Shown here: positions 25,939 through 31,394 of the stretch, piece after piece
Position numbering within the stretch: the first letter of the stretch is position 1
Layout of the letters: every line of letters starts with the position of its first letter
Assembly: GCA_022826245.1 (NCBI GenBank)
Contig: JAJDVG010000058.1
Location: 62,001 to 126,000 of the forward strand
Length of the DNA: 64,000 nucleotides
From: Gammaproteobacteria bacterium
Lineage (GTDB): Bacteria; Pseudomonadota; Gammaproteobacteria; Steroidobacterales; Rariloculaceae
Reading direction: 5' to 3'
Notes under the pieces: generated by a model
What the model was told of the DNA's origin: nothing
Seen by the model: only the letters and a program-made list of their open reading frames with translations
Databases searched by the model: none
Translations under genes and position numbers: made by a program

Positions 25939-27993
25939 ATGGCGGCACGTTCGGCACAACGCATCGACGAAGCCAGGCGCTTGCTCGCCGCGGGCGAGCC
26001 GCGACGGGCCGAGCGCTTGCTGCGGGAACTGCCGGCCGACGAAGCCGACGACATCGAAGCCCGCTATACGCTGGCCGTCGCCCTGCGGCATCAGCGCCGC
26101 TTCGCGCCGTCGCTCGAGCAGCTCGGGCAGATTCTGGCCGCCAGGCCCGGTTTCGGTCGCGCGCACCAGGAAGCCGGTTACAACCACATCGGACTGAAGG
26201 ACTTCGCCCGCGCCGCAGCGTCGTTCGAGCGGGCCGTGGCCGCAGACCCGGGCCTCCTCAATAGCTGGAAGTGCCTGGCCAGGCTGTATCGGGACGGCGG
26301 TCGACGCGAGCGCCTGCCCGAAGTCGAGAACCGGATCGCCTACCTTGAAACCCTGCCGCGCGAACTGCGCTCGGCGATCAGCCACATGGCCGAGGGCCGC
26401 GGCGAGCGGGCCGAGGACCTGTGCAAGCAGTTCCTGCGCGATAACGCGACCCACGTCGAGGGCATGCGTCTGCTTGCCGAGATTCTCACGCGCAACGGCG
26501 TCCACGATCAGGCCGAGTTCCTGCTCGAAAGTTGCCTCGAGTTCGAACCGGGCCACGCGCAGGCACGCATCCAGTACGTCAATCTGCTGCTCAAGCTGCA
26601 AAAGCACGCCCGGGCTTTCGACGAGGCGCGCAAGCTGCTCGACGGGGACGGCGCCGAGCAGCCTGTCGTCCGCTCGCTCTATGCGGCCGCCTGCAACGGG
26701 GTGGGCCGGACCGACGAGGCCATCGAGCACTACCGGCAGCTCATCGAGCGCCATCCCCGGAACCACCTCGTGCCAATCTCCCTGGGCCACGTCTACCGGG
26801 CGCAGGGCGACATCGACGCGGCGATCGAGTGCTACCGCGAGGCCGCGCGGATCAGGCGCGAGCACGGCGACGCGTACTGGAGCCTCGCGAACACCAAGTC
26901 GTACCGCTTCACGGACGTTGAGCTTGCGCAGATGGAGGCGGTCGAGGCGGATCCGGCCACGGGCGAGGAGGACCGCATCAACGTGAGTTTCGCGCTCGGC
27001 AAGGCCTGGGAGGACCGGGAGGAGTTCGAGCGTTCCTTCCGCTACTATCGCCGCGGCAACGCGCTCAAGCGCGCACGCAGCAGGCACAGCCCCGAGCATC
27101 TCGACGTCAGGATCAGGAGCCAGATCGAGGTCTGCACCGAGAAGCTGTTCGCCGAACGCGGCGGTCTCGGCCATCAGGCTCCGGACCCGATCTTCATCGT
27201 CGGGCTGCCGAGGTCGGGCTCGACGCTGCTCGAGCAGATCCTGTCCTCGCACTCCGCGGTCGACGGGACGATGGAACTGCACGAGATCCTGAACCTCGCC
27301 AAGCGGCTTCGCGGGCGCGGCGGCGACCGCCCGGGCTCGCCGCGCTATCCGCGCATCCTCACCGAGCTCGATGACGATTATTTCCGGCGGTTCGGCGAGC
27401 AGTACCTCGAGCTGACTCGCGCGTACCGCGGCAATGCGCCGCGCTTCATCGACAAGATGCCGAACAACTTCTTCCACGTCGGGCTCATCCGGCTGATCCT
27501 GCCGAACGCGAAGGTCATCGACGCCCGCCGCCATCCGCTGGCCACGGGCTTCAGCGGCTTCAAGCAGCTTTTCGGGGAAGGCCAGGAGTTCTCCTACGCG
27601 CTCGCGCACATCGGCAACTACTACCGTCAGTGCGCGAGGCTCATGGATCACTGGGACCGCGTCCTGCCGGGATTCGTGCTGCGCGTGCGGTACGAGGAAG
27701 TCGTCGCCGACCTCGAGGGCCAGGTGCGCCGCCTGCTCGACTTCTGCGGCCTGCCGTTTGAGCCGGCCTGCCTCGAATTCCACCGCACCGAGCGCAGCAT
27801 CCGCACGCCGAGCGCCCAGCAGGTCCGCGAACCCATCTTCACGGCGGGACTCGCGCAGTGGCGCCACTACGAGCGCTGGCTCGGTCCGCTCAAGGACGCG
27901 CTCGGTCCGGAGCTGCTCGCGCGCTATCCGGTTGAAACGGCGACTTCGCCCGAACGCGAGGCGCGTCGGTCCGGCAGTCACGGCCAGCCGTGA
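25939..27993 (+). CDS. TPR-repeat sulfotransferase family protein
   Basis: N-terminal TPR-like repeats; C-terminal PAPS-binding PIFIVGLPRSGSTLLEQILSSHSAVDGTMEL and DKMPNNFFHVGLIRLILPNAKVIDARRHPLATGFSGFKQLF. Confidence 0.92.
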   Translation: MAARSAQRIDEARRLLAAGEPRRAERLLRELPADEADDIEARYTLAVALRHQRRFAPSLEQLGQILAARPGFGRAHQEAGYNHIGLKDFARAAASFERAVAADPGLLNSWKCLARLYRDGGRRERLPEVENRIAYLETLPRELRSAISHMAEGRGERAEDLCKQFLRDNATHVEGMRLLAEILTRNGVHDQAEFLLESCLEFEPGHAQARIQYVNLLLKLQKHARAFDEARKLLDGDGAEQPVVRSLYAAACNGVGRTDEAIEHYRQLIERHPRNHLVPISLGHVYRAQGDIDAAIECYREAARIRREHGDAYWSLANTKSYRFTDVELAQMEAVEADPATGEEDRINVSFALGKAWEDREEFERSFRYYRRGNALKRARSRHSPEHLDVRIRSQIEVCTEKLFAERGGLGHQAPDPIFIVGLPRSGSTLLEQILSSHSAVDGTMELHEILNLAKRLRGRGGDRPGSPRYPRILTELDDDYFRRFGEQYLELTRAYRGNAPRFIDKMPNNFFHVGLIRLILPNAKVIDARRHPLATGFSGFKQLFGEGQEFSYALAHIGNYYRQCARLMDHWDRVLPGFVLRVRYEEVVADLEGQVRRLLDFCGLPFEPACLEFHRTERSIRTPSAQQVREPIFTAGLAQWRHYERWLGPLKDALGPELLARYPVETATSPEREARRSGSHGQP

Positions 27994-28087
27994 ACGGCGC
28001 GACAGGCGTTGCGACGCCAATTCGGTCGAGCCCCTATATACTGCGCTACCGTAATTGACGTTTCCTTGGCAGGGGGATTTGCAACGA

Positions 28088-29260
28088 ATGATTTCCAGAA
28101 CGTGGTTGGCTGGCCTTGCGATCGGCATCACGGCAACGCCCGGCTTCGCCCAGGAGTTCGACGCGTTCGGGCGCTCGGAGGTGCTGCCGGAGCCGGAACG
28201 GGACTGGATGTTCGTCGACTACAGCCTCGTCGATGTCACCGACGATCGTTACCTCGGCTTGATCGGCGTGGCCGAGACCTTCTCGCCGGCAGCGATCGAG
28301 TTCTCTCCCGACGGATCGTCGCTGTTTGCTCTTGAGACCTTCTACACGCGCGGCAACCGCGGGGACCGAACCGACACCGTCACGATTTTCGACACGGTTA
28401 CGCTCGGCGTTGCGGGCGAGGTCGTGATCCCCGCCAAACGGGCGCTGGCGCTGATCGTCAAGGGCGCCCTGGCGCTGACCGACAACGGCCGCTTTCTGGG
28501 CGTGTTCAACCTGACGCCCGCCACGTCCATCAGCGTCGTTGACATCGAAGCAGGGACGTTTGTCGGTGAAATCTCGACTCCCGGCTGCAGCCTCGTGTTC
28601 TCCGGGGGCGATCTGCGCTACCTGATGATCTGCGCCAACGGCGACCTGCTCACCGTAACGGTCGACGAGGTAGGCCGCGAAGTGTCCAAGGAGCGCACCG
28701 AAAGCTTCTTCGACCCGGAAATCGATCCGCTCCGTGAGGCCGGCGTGCGCTTCGGGGACGAATGGCTGTTCGTGTCGTTCGACGGAACGATGCATTCGGT
28801 GGACGTTGCCGGCGAGATTCCGCGGATCGGCGAGAGCTGGTCGCTGCTCAGCGAAGCTGACCGCGAAGAGAACTGGCGCATCACGGGGCGCCAGCCGCTC
28901 GCCGTTCACGAGCAGAGCGGTCGACTGTACGTCCTGGCGCGGCAGAGCGAAGAACCGCTCGACGATCCGGCGGACTGGGACGGAACCGAGATCTGGGCGT
29001 TTGATCTCGCAACGCGCGAACGCGTGCAGCGACTCGAAGCGCGCCCGGAACTCGAGGAAGGCGGAGGACCCGGCGGCGCGATCGGGTCGACCAGCGGGGA
29101 CGGCACTTCCAACATCCAGGTCACCCAGGGCGACGAGCCGTTGCTGGTCGCGGTCTCCGATACGGGTATCTCGGTCCGCCACGCGCTGAACGGCGACTAT
29201 CTTCACGAGCGGCTGGAAAACGCTCCGGCGAGCGGGTGGCTGTCGCTGCGCATCCGCTAG
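28088..29260 (+). CDS. mauB: Amine dehydrogenase large (heavy) subunit, MauB/AauB-like
   Basis: Secreted beta-propeller-like protein DWMFVDYSLVDVTDDRYLGLIGVAETFSPAAIEFSPDGSSLFALETFYTRGNRGDRTDTVTIFD; followed by mauE, mauD and mauA homologues. Confidence 0.9.
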   Translation: MISRTWLAGLAIGITATPGFAQEFDAFGRSEVLPEPERDWMFVDYSLVDVTDDRYLGLIGVAETFSPAAIEFSPDGSSLFALETFYTRGNRGDRTDTVTIFDTVTLGVAGEVVIPAKRALALIVKGALALTDNGRFLGVFNLTPATSISVVDIEAGTFVGEISTPGCSLVFSGGDLRYLMICANGDLLTVTVDEVGREVSKERTESFFDPEIDPLREAGVRFGDEWLFVSFDGTMHSVDVAGEIPRIGESWSLLSEADREENWRITGRQPLAVHEQSGRLYVLARQSEEPLDDPADWDGTEIWAFDLATRERVQRLEARPELEEGGGPGGAIGSTSGDGTSNIQVTQGDEPLLVAVSDTGISVRHALNGDYLHERLENAPASGWLSLRIR

Positions 29261-29272
29261 CGGCGGCAGACG

Positions 29273-29803
29273 GTGGATACGGTCATCGCGCTCGTTGTCG
29301 TCCTGTCATTGGCGTTGCTGTGGGTCGTGGCCGCGGTGCACAAGATTCGCGGTTTCGAAGTTTTTGCGGTCGTTCTGGCCGATTACCGCCTGGTCCCGGC
29401 GCGGGCGACCGGTGCCTGCGCCGCGGCCGTAATCGCTCTCGAACTGGGGTTGGGGATCTGTCTCCTGATTCCCGCCACGCGAAGCCTCGCATTGGCCGGC
29501 AGCGCACTGCTGCTTGTGGCTTACGCGGCAGCCATTGCGGTGAACCTGCACCGGGGGCGGCGCTTCATCGACTGCGGCTGCGCGGGCGTCGCCGGCCACC
29601 AAGCCCTGAGCGGCTGGCTCGTCGCGCGCAACCTGCTGCTGGCCGCCCTCGCGCTTGCCGCGATGCTGCCCGTGCCGGCGCGGCCGCTGATCTGGCTCGA
29701 CGCGATCACGGTAGCGGCGGCTGTCGGCGCAGCGGCGTTGCTCTACGCAGTGAGCAATCGGCTCATCGCCAACGGGCCGGACCTTGCCCGATTGAGGGGC
29801 TGA
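29273..29803 (+). CDS. mauE: MauE/DoxX family redox-associated membrane protein
   Basis: Multi-pass membrane protein with VAAVHKIRGFEVFAVVLADYRLVP and FIDCGCAGVAGH; position between mauB and mauD. Confidence 0.87.
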   Translation: MDTVIALVVVLSLALLWVVAAVHKIRGFEVFAVVLADYRLVPARATGACAAAVIALELGLGICLLIPATRSLALAGSALLLVAYAAAIAVNLHRGRRFIDCGCAGVAGHQALSGWLVARNLLLAALALAAMLPVPARPLIWLDAITVAAAVGAAALLYAVSNRLIANGPDLARLRG

Positions 29804-29805
29804 GC

Positions 29806-30423
29806 ATGTCCGGCGCGCTGCTGGCATCCAACGTATTGCTCTGGATCCTCGTGCTCGTCATGGGCGGCGTGATCCTTGCGCTGGTCCGGCAGATCGGCGT
29901 GCTGTACGAGCGGGTTGCTCCGGCCGGCGCCCTGGTGGTAGGCAGCGGCCCGAAGGCCGGCGAGGCGGCGCCCGAGTTCACCGTCGGCGACCTCGCGAAC
30001 GATGAGCATCGGGTCGGGGGCAAGCGATCGGACGACCTCAGTACCCTGCTGTTCTTCCTGTCGCCGACCTGTCCCGTCTGCAAGACCTTGCTGCCGGCGC
30101 TCAAGTCCATCGCGCGCGAGGAGCGCAAATGGCTGAACGTCTTGCTTGCCAGTGACGGCGCGCGCAAGGAGCACGAAGCGTTCGTCGCCGAGTATCGGCT
30201 GCAACAGTTTCCCTATCTGCTTTCGTCGGAACTCGGCCTGGGCTACCGGGTCGGACGCCTGCCCCACGCCGTGCTGATCGATCCGGAGGGCATCATTCGC
30301 TCGACCGGACTCGTGAATTCCCGGGAGCACCTGGAGAGTCTGTTTGAGGCCAACGAGCGCGGTGTGGCAACCTTGCAGGAGTACATGGCCGCGGAGCAAT
30401 CGCGGGAAGAGGAGGTCGCCTGA
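29806..30423 (+). CDS. mauD: Methylamine dehydrogenase accessory protein MauD (thioredoxin-like)
   Basis: N-terminal TM; TLLFFLSPTCPVCKTLLPALKSIAREE with CPVC active site. Confidence 0.92.
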   Translation: MSGALLASNVLLWILVLVMGGVILALVRQIGVLYERVAPAGALVVGSGPKAGEAAPEFTVGDLANDEHRVGGKRSDDLSTLLFFLSPTCPVCKTLLPALKSIAREERKWLNVLLASDGARKEHEAFVAEYRLQQFPYLLSSELGLGYRVGRLPHAVLIDPEGIIRSTGLVNSREHLESLFEANERGVATLQEYMAAEQSREEEVA

Positions 30424-30425
30424 TC

Positions 30426-30968
30426 ATGGATTCGACGAACTGGATGGACCGCAGGTTCGAGACCGGCGCGAGATACCTGGCCAGACTCACGTCGCGGCGC
30501 AGCTTTCTGACCCGGCTCGGCACGCTGCTCGTGGGCGCGGCATCCATTCCGCTGCTGCCGATGTCGCGGGCGGCCGCACAGGCCGCCGATGCCGGTTTCA
30601 GGGAGCCCGACATCGACGGCGATGCGGGCGATCCCATGAACTGCAACTACTGGCGCTACTGCTCGATCGACGGTTTCATGTCGCCGTGCTGCGGCGGATC
30701 GGCGTCGTCCTGCCCGCCCGGTACCGAGATGTCCGCCGTGACCTGGATCGGAACGTGCCAGAATCCGGCCGACGGCAACGACTACCTCATTTCCTACAAC
30801 GACTGTTGCGGCAAGAGCCCCTGCGGTCAGTGCTTCTGCAACAACAACGAAGACGACATGCCCGTCTATGTCACCGGCAGGTCGAACAATATCAACTGGT
30901 GCCTGGCCCACAGCACCACGGCCTATCACAGCACCGTCGCCCTGGTGCTGGGACGCGCCGACGGCTGA
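30426..30968 (+). CDS. mauA: TTQ amine dehydrogenase small (light) subunit, MauA/AauA-like
   Basis: Twin-arginine leader SRRSFLTRLG; Cys-rich CNYWRYCSIDGFMSPCCGGSASSCPPGTEMSAVTWIGTC ... NDCCGKSPCGQCFCNNN ... NNINWCLAHST with both candidate TTQ tryptophans. Confidence 0.94.
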   Translation: MDSTNWMDRRFETGARYLARLTSRRSFLTRLGTLLVGAASIPLLPMSRAAAQAADAGFREPDIDGDAGDPMNCNYWRYCSIDGFMSPCCGGSASSCPPGTEMSAVTWIGTCQNPADGNDYLISYNDCCGKSPCGQCFCNNNEDDMPVYVTGRSNNINWCLAHSTTAYHSTVALVLGRADG

Positions 30969-30974
30969 GCAGAC

Positions 30975-31394
30975 ATGGTGCGGATTGCGCTCGCACTATT
31001 GACCTTTGCGTTCGGGCTGGCAGCGGCGGGCGCCGGGTCCGCCGCATCGCCCCGATTCAACTACATCCTCCATTGCCAGGGTTGCCACCTGGCCGACGGC
31101 GGGGCAACGCCCGGCAAGATTCCGCCCCTGATCGGAACCGGCAGGTTCCTTGCGGTGGAAGGGGGCAGGGAATTCCTGGTGCGCGTCCCGGGCGTGTCCC
31201 TGTCGATCGTTCCCGACGACGAACTCGCTGAGCTCATCAACTGGATGCTTTTCCGATTCAGTGCCGATGACGTGCCGGCCGACTTCGAGCCGTACACGGC
31301 GGAGGAGGTCGGCCGCTACCGGCAGGAGCCGCTGGTCGAAGTCGAAACGGTTCGGGTCGGGCTGATCGGCCCCTACGACGAGACGCCGGAATAA
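30975..31394 (+). CDS. Small secreted mono-haem c-type cytochrome
   Basis: Signal peptide plus single CXXCH (FNYILHCQGCHLADGG); 6 bp downstream of mauA. Confidence 0.83.
   Translation: MVRIALALLTFAFGLAAAGAGSAASPRFNYILHCQGCHLADGGATPGKIPPLIGTGRFLAVEGGREFLVRVPGVSLSIVPDDELAELINWMLFRFSADDVPADFEPYTAEEVGRYRQEPLVEVETVRVGLIGPYDETPE

Follow-up and report, generated by a model that had tools for sequence, protein, structure and literature searches.

A mono-haem cytochrome c tied to MauG-free tryptophan tryptophylquinone amine dehydrogenase clusters as a candidate cofactor maturation factor

The DNA analysed here, called the window, is a 64,000-nucleotide stretch of a gammaproteobacterial genome of the family Rariloculaceae (assembly GCA_022826245.1, contig JAJDVG010000058.1, positions 62,001 to 126,000, forward strand). 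Its operon at 28088-31394 encodes an amine dehydrogenase that carries the cofactor tryptophan tryptophylquinone (TTQ), made from two tryptophans of the enzyme, followed by a small c-type cytochrome that is the main subject of this work. Five open reading frames (ORFs) lie on the + strand in the order mauB-mauE-mauD-mauA-cytochrome c, with intergenic gaps of only 2-12 bases. A compact cluster of this composition was described in an initial annotation, and the ORFs and family scores agree with it. AADH and MADH stand for aromatic amine dehydrogenase and methylamine dehydrogenase.

28088..29260, + strand: large (alpha) subunit, beta-propeller, with signal peptide MISRTWLAGLAIGITATPGFAQ; ATG at 28088 (PF06433, E = 3.9e-28)
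29273..29803, + strand: MauE, membrane protein; GTG start (PF07291, E = 2e-25)
29806..30423, + strand: MauD, thioredoxin-like, active site CPVC (TIGR02661, E = 5.5e-62)
30426..30968, + strand: MauA/AauA, TTQ-bearing small subunit with the twin-arginine leader SRRSFLTRLG (PF02975, E = 1.9e-47; AADH and MADH light chains in the PDB)
30975..31394, + strand: mono-haem cytochrome c of family 1 with a Sec-type leader, candidate TTQ maturation factor (alignment to 74 TTQ-cluster relatives)

Both subunits belong to the TTQ enzyme families, with scores above the cut-offs (98.8 bits on PF06433 and 160.8 bits on PF02975). MauD reaches 208.6 bits on TIGR02661, for a cut-off of 188.6. The frame of the large subunit stays open to an alternative upstream TTG at 28055. 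By homology, MauE probably takes part in export or disulfide formation of the small subunit. The operon contains no mauF, mauJ, mauG or amicyanin gene; the initial annotation had noted this for all but mauJ, and its suggestion that TTQ matures through something other than an operon-encoded MauG fits the missing mauG. This gene order without mauF, mauJ and mauG is that of the AADH (aau) type.

The layout is not rare. The absence of mauG and mauF, pointed out in the initial annotation, is not peculiar to this locus: it is the aau gene order and the usual state of the TTQ clusters sampled. When genome contigs were scanned for the small subunit, more than 560 relatives were retrieved. B-E-D-A-cytochrome, complete or in part, is the arrangement of nearly all of the best 80 of these >560 loci, and no di-haem MauG-sized gene was identified in their flanks. 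Completed with plasmid and whole-genome loci, the table comprises 114 loci. B-E-D-A with a cytochrome accounts for 88 of them, B-A with a cytochrome for eight, B-A alone for eight and B-E-D-A alone for two. Three more are truncated but have the cytochrome, and the last five contain mauF, mauJ and a di-haem protein. Over the 114 loci, the family-1 cytochrome occurs in none of these five clusters, and mauF, mauJ and mauG occur in no locus with family 1. Amicyanin is found in two of the five, against five of five for mauF, mauJ and the di-haem protein.

Loci without family 1 were considered as counter-examples and dismissed, as their genomes encode a family-1 cytochrome elsewhere (7/7 of those tested). 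Since B-A-only loci occur in genomes with family 1 at another place, they probably use accessory functions supplied in trans. Pairs of mauB and mauA without mauE, mauD and cytochrome are found at L041, L051, L052, L069, L214, L227 and L229. In marine gammaproteobacterial clusters (L017, L024, L028, L063 and about ten others), the family-1 gene is directly followed by a gene for a protein of about 190-210 residues with two CxxCH motifs, a possible electron acceptor.

The family-1 cytochrome is strictly tied to MauG-free TTQ clusters. In a sample of 274 genomes drawn evenly from one class, with a PF02975 match defining TTQ-positive genomes, ten were positive, and nine of these encode family 1, always beside mauA and with E<=1.2e-31. 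None of the 264 TTQ-negative genomes has a match at that level, the best two lying near 4e-7. When a second class and close relatives were added, family 1 was present in 27 of 28 TTQ genomes; a weak PF02975 match broken by stops (G506, E 2.8e-4) was excluded from the 28. The centre genome of the second class was chosen for having the cluster and the others were drawn automatically. Many of the sampled genomes are metagenome bins. The only TTQ genome without family 1, G109, contains mauF-B-E-D-A-J plus a di-haem cytochrome c peroxidase (CCP), and in one genome (G664) the two cluster types coexist, each accompanied by the accessory set that belongs to it. In a search of the open literature, no paper was found that describes the family-1 cytochrome or AADH maturation.

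The haem site of this cytochrome can be located with two further features:

31074..31088, + strand: haem-binding motif CQGCH (direct reading; both Cys and the His are invariant in family 1)
31185..31193, + strand: VPG motif at the place of the deleted 19-residue Met-ligand loop of c-552 proteins (family alignment; Thermus c-552 alignment)

The window cytochrome has no Pfam or NCBIfam match (E<=0.01 for the whole protein, E<=0.05 for the mature part); most of its family-1 relatives weakly match the general cytochrome c model of Pfam. Its AlphaFold model has a pLDDT of 91.9. By sequence and fold, the nearest solved relatives are the Thermus cytochrome c-552 proteins (1C52; TM-score 0.73-0.75, E 2e-5 to 1e-4), with which it shares the CxxCH haem site. 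With its single CxxCH and c-552 fold, it does not have the di-haem CCP fold of the MauG family (PF03150).

Unlike Thermus c-552, family 1 is without the loop that provides the axial Met. In 12 loci, an ordinary, Met-ligated c-552 (family 2) is encoded beside family 1, and its loop G-x-x-G-x-[IL]-x-V-x-G-x-x-Y-x-G-x-M supplies the axial Met. The distance between a conserved Arg and the Asn-Trp helix is 43 residues in family 2 and 24 in family 1. The missing 19 residues are the axial-Met loop, cleanly deleted with VPG in its place. The spacing of 33-37 scored for some family-1 rows arises because the pattern matched a residue further upstream; read from the segments themselves, it equals that of the other rows. 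No column of the family-1 alignment holds a conserved Met or His on the ligand-loop side. The invariant or nearly invariant positions are Tyr30, Arg65, Pro72-Gly73, Asn89, Trp90, Glu111, Arg116 and Arg127 (window numbering). Family 1 thus appears to be devoid of the His-Met haem coordination of c-552 carriers. Both types can be recognised in the Pseudomonas aau cluster, where cycA_1 belongs to family 1 and cycA_2 to the Met-ligated type.

The rest of the source genome was searched for mauG and for azurin or amicyanin, as the initial annotation had advised. The assembly (3.6 Mb, 96.5% complete) encodes one TTQ enzyme and contains no MauG orthologue: the Paracoccus MauG query gave no match at E<=1e-10. 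Its sole CCP/MauG-family protein is a di-haem protein on contig C10 (L003 1387-2886). It resembles ordinary peroxidases more (86 bits) than it does MauG (about 50 bits), bears an Fn3-like region at its C-terminus and has unrelated genes as neighbours. Azurin is encoded on contig C1 (L005 1429-1878; 144 bits to azurin-1). It is the only blue copper protein found and the only match to that family in the genome, so no amicyanin was found there. Immediately downstream of the azurin gene is one that resembles cytochrome c oxidase subunit II and encodes two additional c-type domains. Azurin is the known partner of AADH and has been crystallised with it. The AADH-azurin structures 2H3X and 2IAA both matched as AADH in our PDB search.

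The need for MauG was also assessed across the relatives. Five of 40 aau-type genomes encode a MauG-like protein with an identity of 49% or more to that of Paracoccus; none of the five proteins adjoins mau genes, and they were rejected as the missing MauG. Identity to Paracoccus MauG was dropped as the sole test, because it is as low as 35% for Methylobacterium MauG but 47-53% for solitary MauG-like proteins away from mau genes (L086 9874-11037, L119 10016-11074, L120-L124). From these values, the Paracoccus and Methylobacterium mau clusters look as if the di-haem protein had been recruited from different branches of the family. Because MauG sequences diverge, the whole Pfam family PF03150 was counted instead. 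At E<=0.01, no member was detected in 14 of 48 distinct aau-type genomes (two identical entries, G001 and G313, were counted once and G109 was left out). Two Paraglaciecola isolates are among these 14, as are a genome assembled in a single contig of 3.74 Mb and another that is 96% complete. Given these genomes without any detected CCP/MauG-family protein, the di-haem family is dispensable across the relatives.

By gene order and subunit scores, the enzyme itself is probably an aau-type, AADH-like TTQ amine dehydrogenase. Against PDB chains, the large subunit scores 147 bits with AADH and 86 bits with MADH. Both subunits fall under the NCBI MADH equivalog cut-offs (101.7 for 454 in the large subunit, 166.6 for 196.9 in the small one) and are therefore considered relatives of MADH and not MADH. 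In a large-subunit tree (80 rows, unrooted), a phylogeny also called for by the initial annotation, the window sequence is not an ordinary MADH. It lies in a separate clade with its own genus and family, near Myxococcota loci and gammaproteobacterial relatives. The five mauF/J/G-type clusters form one separate group (support 99) among the family-1 clusters. The refuting outcome named in the initial annotation, mauG and amicyanin at another place together with an ordinary MADH phylogeny, did not materialise. The window lies outside a supported clade (99) containing the Alcaligenes faecalis AADH, which clusters with Pseudomonas and Derxia sequences. The earlier idea of an aromatic-amine-type enzyme is consequently retained in part: the large subunit is nearer to AADH, but it falls outside the A. 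faecalis clade, and its position in the tree does not seem to assign it an aromatic-amine substrate.

The small subunit retains the residues expected of a TTQ protein, in line with the two Trp contexts pointed out in the initial annotation:

30744..30746, + strand: codon of Trp107, first TTQ tryptophan (AADH/MADH alignment; W in 121/121 relatives)
30897..30899, + strand: codon of Trp158, second TTQ tryptophan (AADH/MADH alignment; W in 121/121 relatives)
30801..30803, + strand: codon of Asp126, catalytic/maturation Asp (D in 121/121 relatives)
30681..30683, + strand: codon of Ser86, where most relatives have a Cys paired with position 169
30930..30932, + strand: codon of Ser169, partner position of the lost disulfide

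Alignment to the AADH and MADH light chains shows that Asp82 and Thr170 are kept too, and that Tyr167 occupies the position of AADH Phe169. Positions 86 and 169 carry Cys at both in 105 sequences and at neither in 16, and are never mixed. The 16 include the window protein, and all come from the window lineage or Myxococcota-type relatives. One disulfide thus appears to have been lost as a pair; by alignment it corresponds to Cys36-Cys121 in MADH numbering. An additional Cys pair, at positions 89 and 133, is present in aau-type small subunits and absent from the MADH type, and may form a further disulfide in most aau-type small subunits.

Outside the five genes, a promoter scan at the operon gave no signal beyond chance. 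A gene for a TPR-sulfotransferase fusion (25939-27993) lies just 5' of the operon and is not kept beside the cluster in relatives. The upstream sulfotransferase, TonB receptor and transglutaminase were rejected as parts of the system, as they are found beside the cluster only in close relatives.

In MADH, TTQ is finished by MauG, starting from a precursor with a mono-hydroxylated Trp (PMC7876137). For the window enzyme, we propose that the mono-haem family-1 cytochrome, with an open haem, would finish TTQ in place of MauG, a proposal for and against which the evidence weighs about evenly. MauA would be exported by the Tat route to the periplasm, where MauE and MauD would make its disulfides, as homology suggests. 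Mono-hydroxylation of one Trp would follow, probably by autocatalysis involving the active-site Asp, as assumed for MADH. The family-1 cytochrome would then drive the remaining steps, namely the second hydroxylation, the Trp107-Trp158 cross-link and the oxidation to the quinone. Its haem would keep the His ligand of CQGCH, and the loss of the sixth-ligand loop may leave a site for peroxide or oxygen. A ferryl species could form at this open haem and its holes could reach pre-TTQ via protein aromatics, so that one open haem would do the work of the two in MauG. The working TTQ would pass its electrons to azurin or to another c-type cytochrome. The open haem, the peroxide or oxygen chemistry and the completion of TTQ are all inferred from sequence features.

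Several points weigh against this proposal. The sixth ligand could come from a non-conserved residue or from a partner protein. A mono-haem protein must store two oxidising equivalents without the second haem of MauG. The C10 protein of the source genome is not excludable by sequence alone, and as true MauGs diverge as far as those of Paracoccus and Methylobacterium, a distant MauG could hide among the CCPs of the 34 genomes that have some. Finally, the co-occurrence with TTQ enzymes suits an electron acceptor just as well. Family 1 would then serve AADH-like enzymes as their dedicated acceptor, in the way amicyanin serves MADH, and TTQ would be completed spontaneously or by a general enzyme. 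This explanation, the strongest of the rivals, is credible but, on the whole, somewhat doubtful. It accounts for the gene position, which is that of amicyanin in Paracoccus, for the strict tie to the TTQ enzyme and for the periplasmic leader, and it agrees with the electron-transfer function of Thermus c-552, the nearest solved fold. However, all of family 1 has lost the loop by which an electron-transfer c-552 is tuned, and many clusters add Met-ligated or di-haem cytochromes yet keep family 1. Other proteins can take the acceptor role, given the azurin of the source genome, the AADH-azurin structures and the second, Met-ligated c-552 in 12 loci. Moreover, as amicyanin is present in only two of the five mauF/J/G-type clusters and mauF, mauJ and the di-haem protein in all five, it is the maturation set that family 1 replaces most tightly.

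It is unlikely that a distant member of the CCP/MauG family from another part of the genome, for example the C10 protein, completes TTQ. One such protein does occur in the source genome, and at least one in many relatives, but the 14 genomes in which none was detected refute it as a general explanation, and the C10 protein itself is peroxidase-like, with its Fn3-like region and unrelated neighbours. It is hardly conceivable that the family-1 cytochrome is an operon bystander, for example a general respiratory cytochrome c. The weak general cytochrome c matches in Pfam would be compatible with this, but no match at family level occurs in the 264 TTQ-negative genomes of the class, and family 1 adjoins mauA almost wherever it is found. 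Returning to the proposed role in maturation, its wider form is put forward tentatively, its chances falling a little short of even: in most TTQ amine dehydrogenases the cofactor would be completed by the widespread, previously unrecognised loop-less mono-haem family, and MauG would serve only a smaller methylotroph branch. In that case, evolution would have recruited two unrelated haem enzymes for a single six-electron protein modification.

The window operon resembles the aau clusters of A. faecalis (PDB 2AGL) and Pseudomonas (plasmid LT969519) in its B-E-D-A order followed by a c-type cytochrome and in the azurin of the genome. The Pseudomonas cluster is likewise without mauF, mauJ and mauG, and its cycA_1 is a family-1 cytochrome. 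A mono-haem cytochrome c gene (orf-2) after aauA was reportedly part of the 2001 description of the A. faecalis cluster, from which mauF, mauJ, mauG, mauL, mauM and mauN are presumably absent. The window enzyme differs from these AADHs by its place outside their clade, by Tyr167 and by the lost disulfide pair. With the mau clusters of Paracoccus and Methylobacterium it shares homologous mauB, mauE, mauD and mauA and the same TTQ residues, but their mauF, mauJ, mauG and amicyanin are missing and they form a separate clade. Three MADH plasmids, unlike the window, have no family-1 cytochrome. The role proposed for family 1 is like that of MauG, from which it differs by its one haem and c-552 fold, without kinship in sequence or fold. 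To our knowledge, no TTQ-completing enzyme other than MauG has been described.

The tie of this cytochrome family to TTQ genomes, the 19-residue loop deletion and the aau-type genomes free of di-haem proteins appear to be new. TTQ formation of the AADH type, without MauG in the cluster, now has one named and structurally odd candidate gene. Even if the role in maturation is wrong, family 1 keeps its strict tie to TTQ and a haem site that calls for explanation. If it is right, a one-haem protein would perform long-range protein oxidation of the kind attributed to a di-haem state, and TTQ enzymes would become easier to produce in heterologous hosts.

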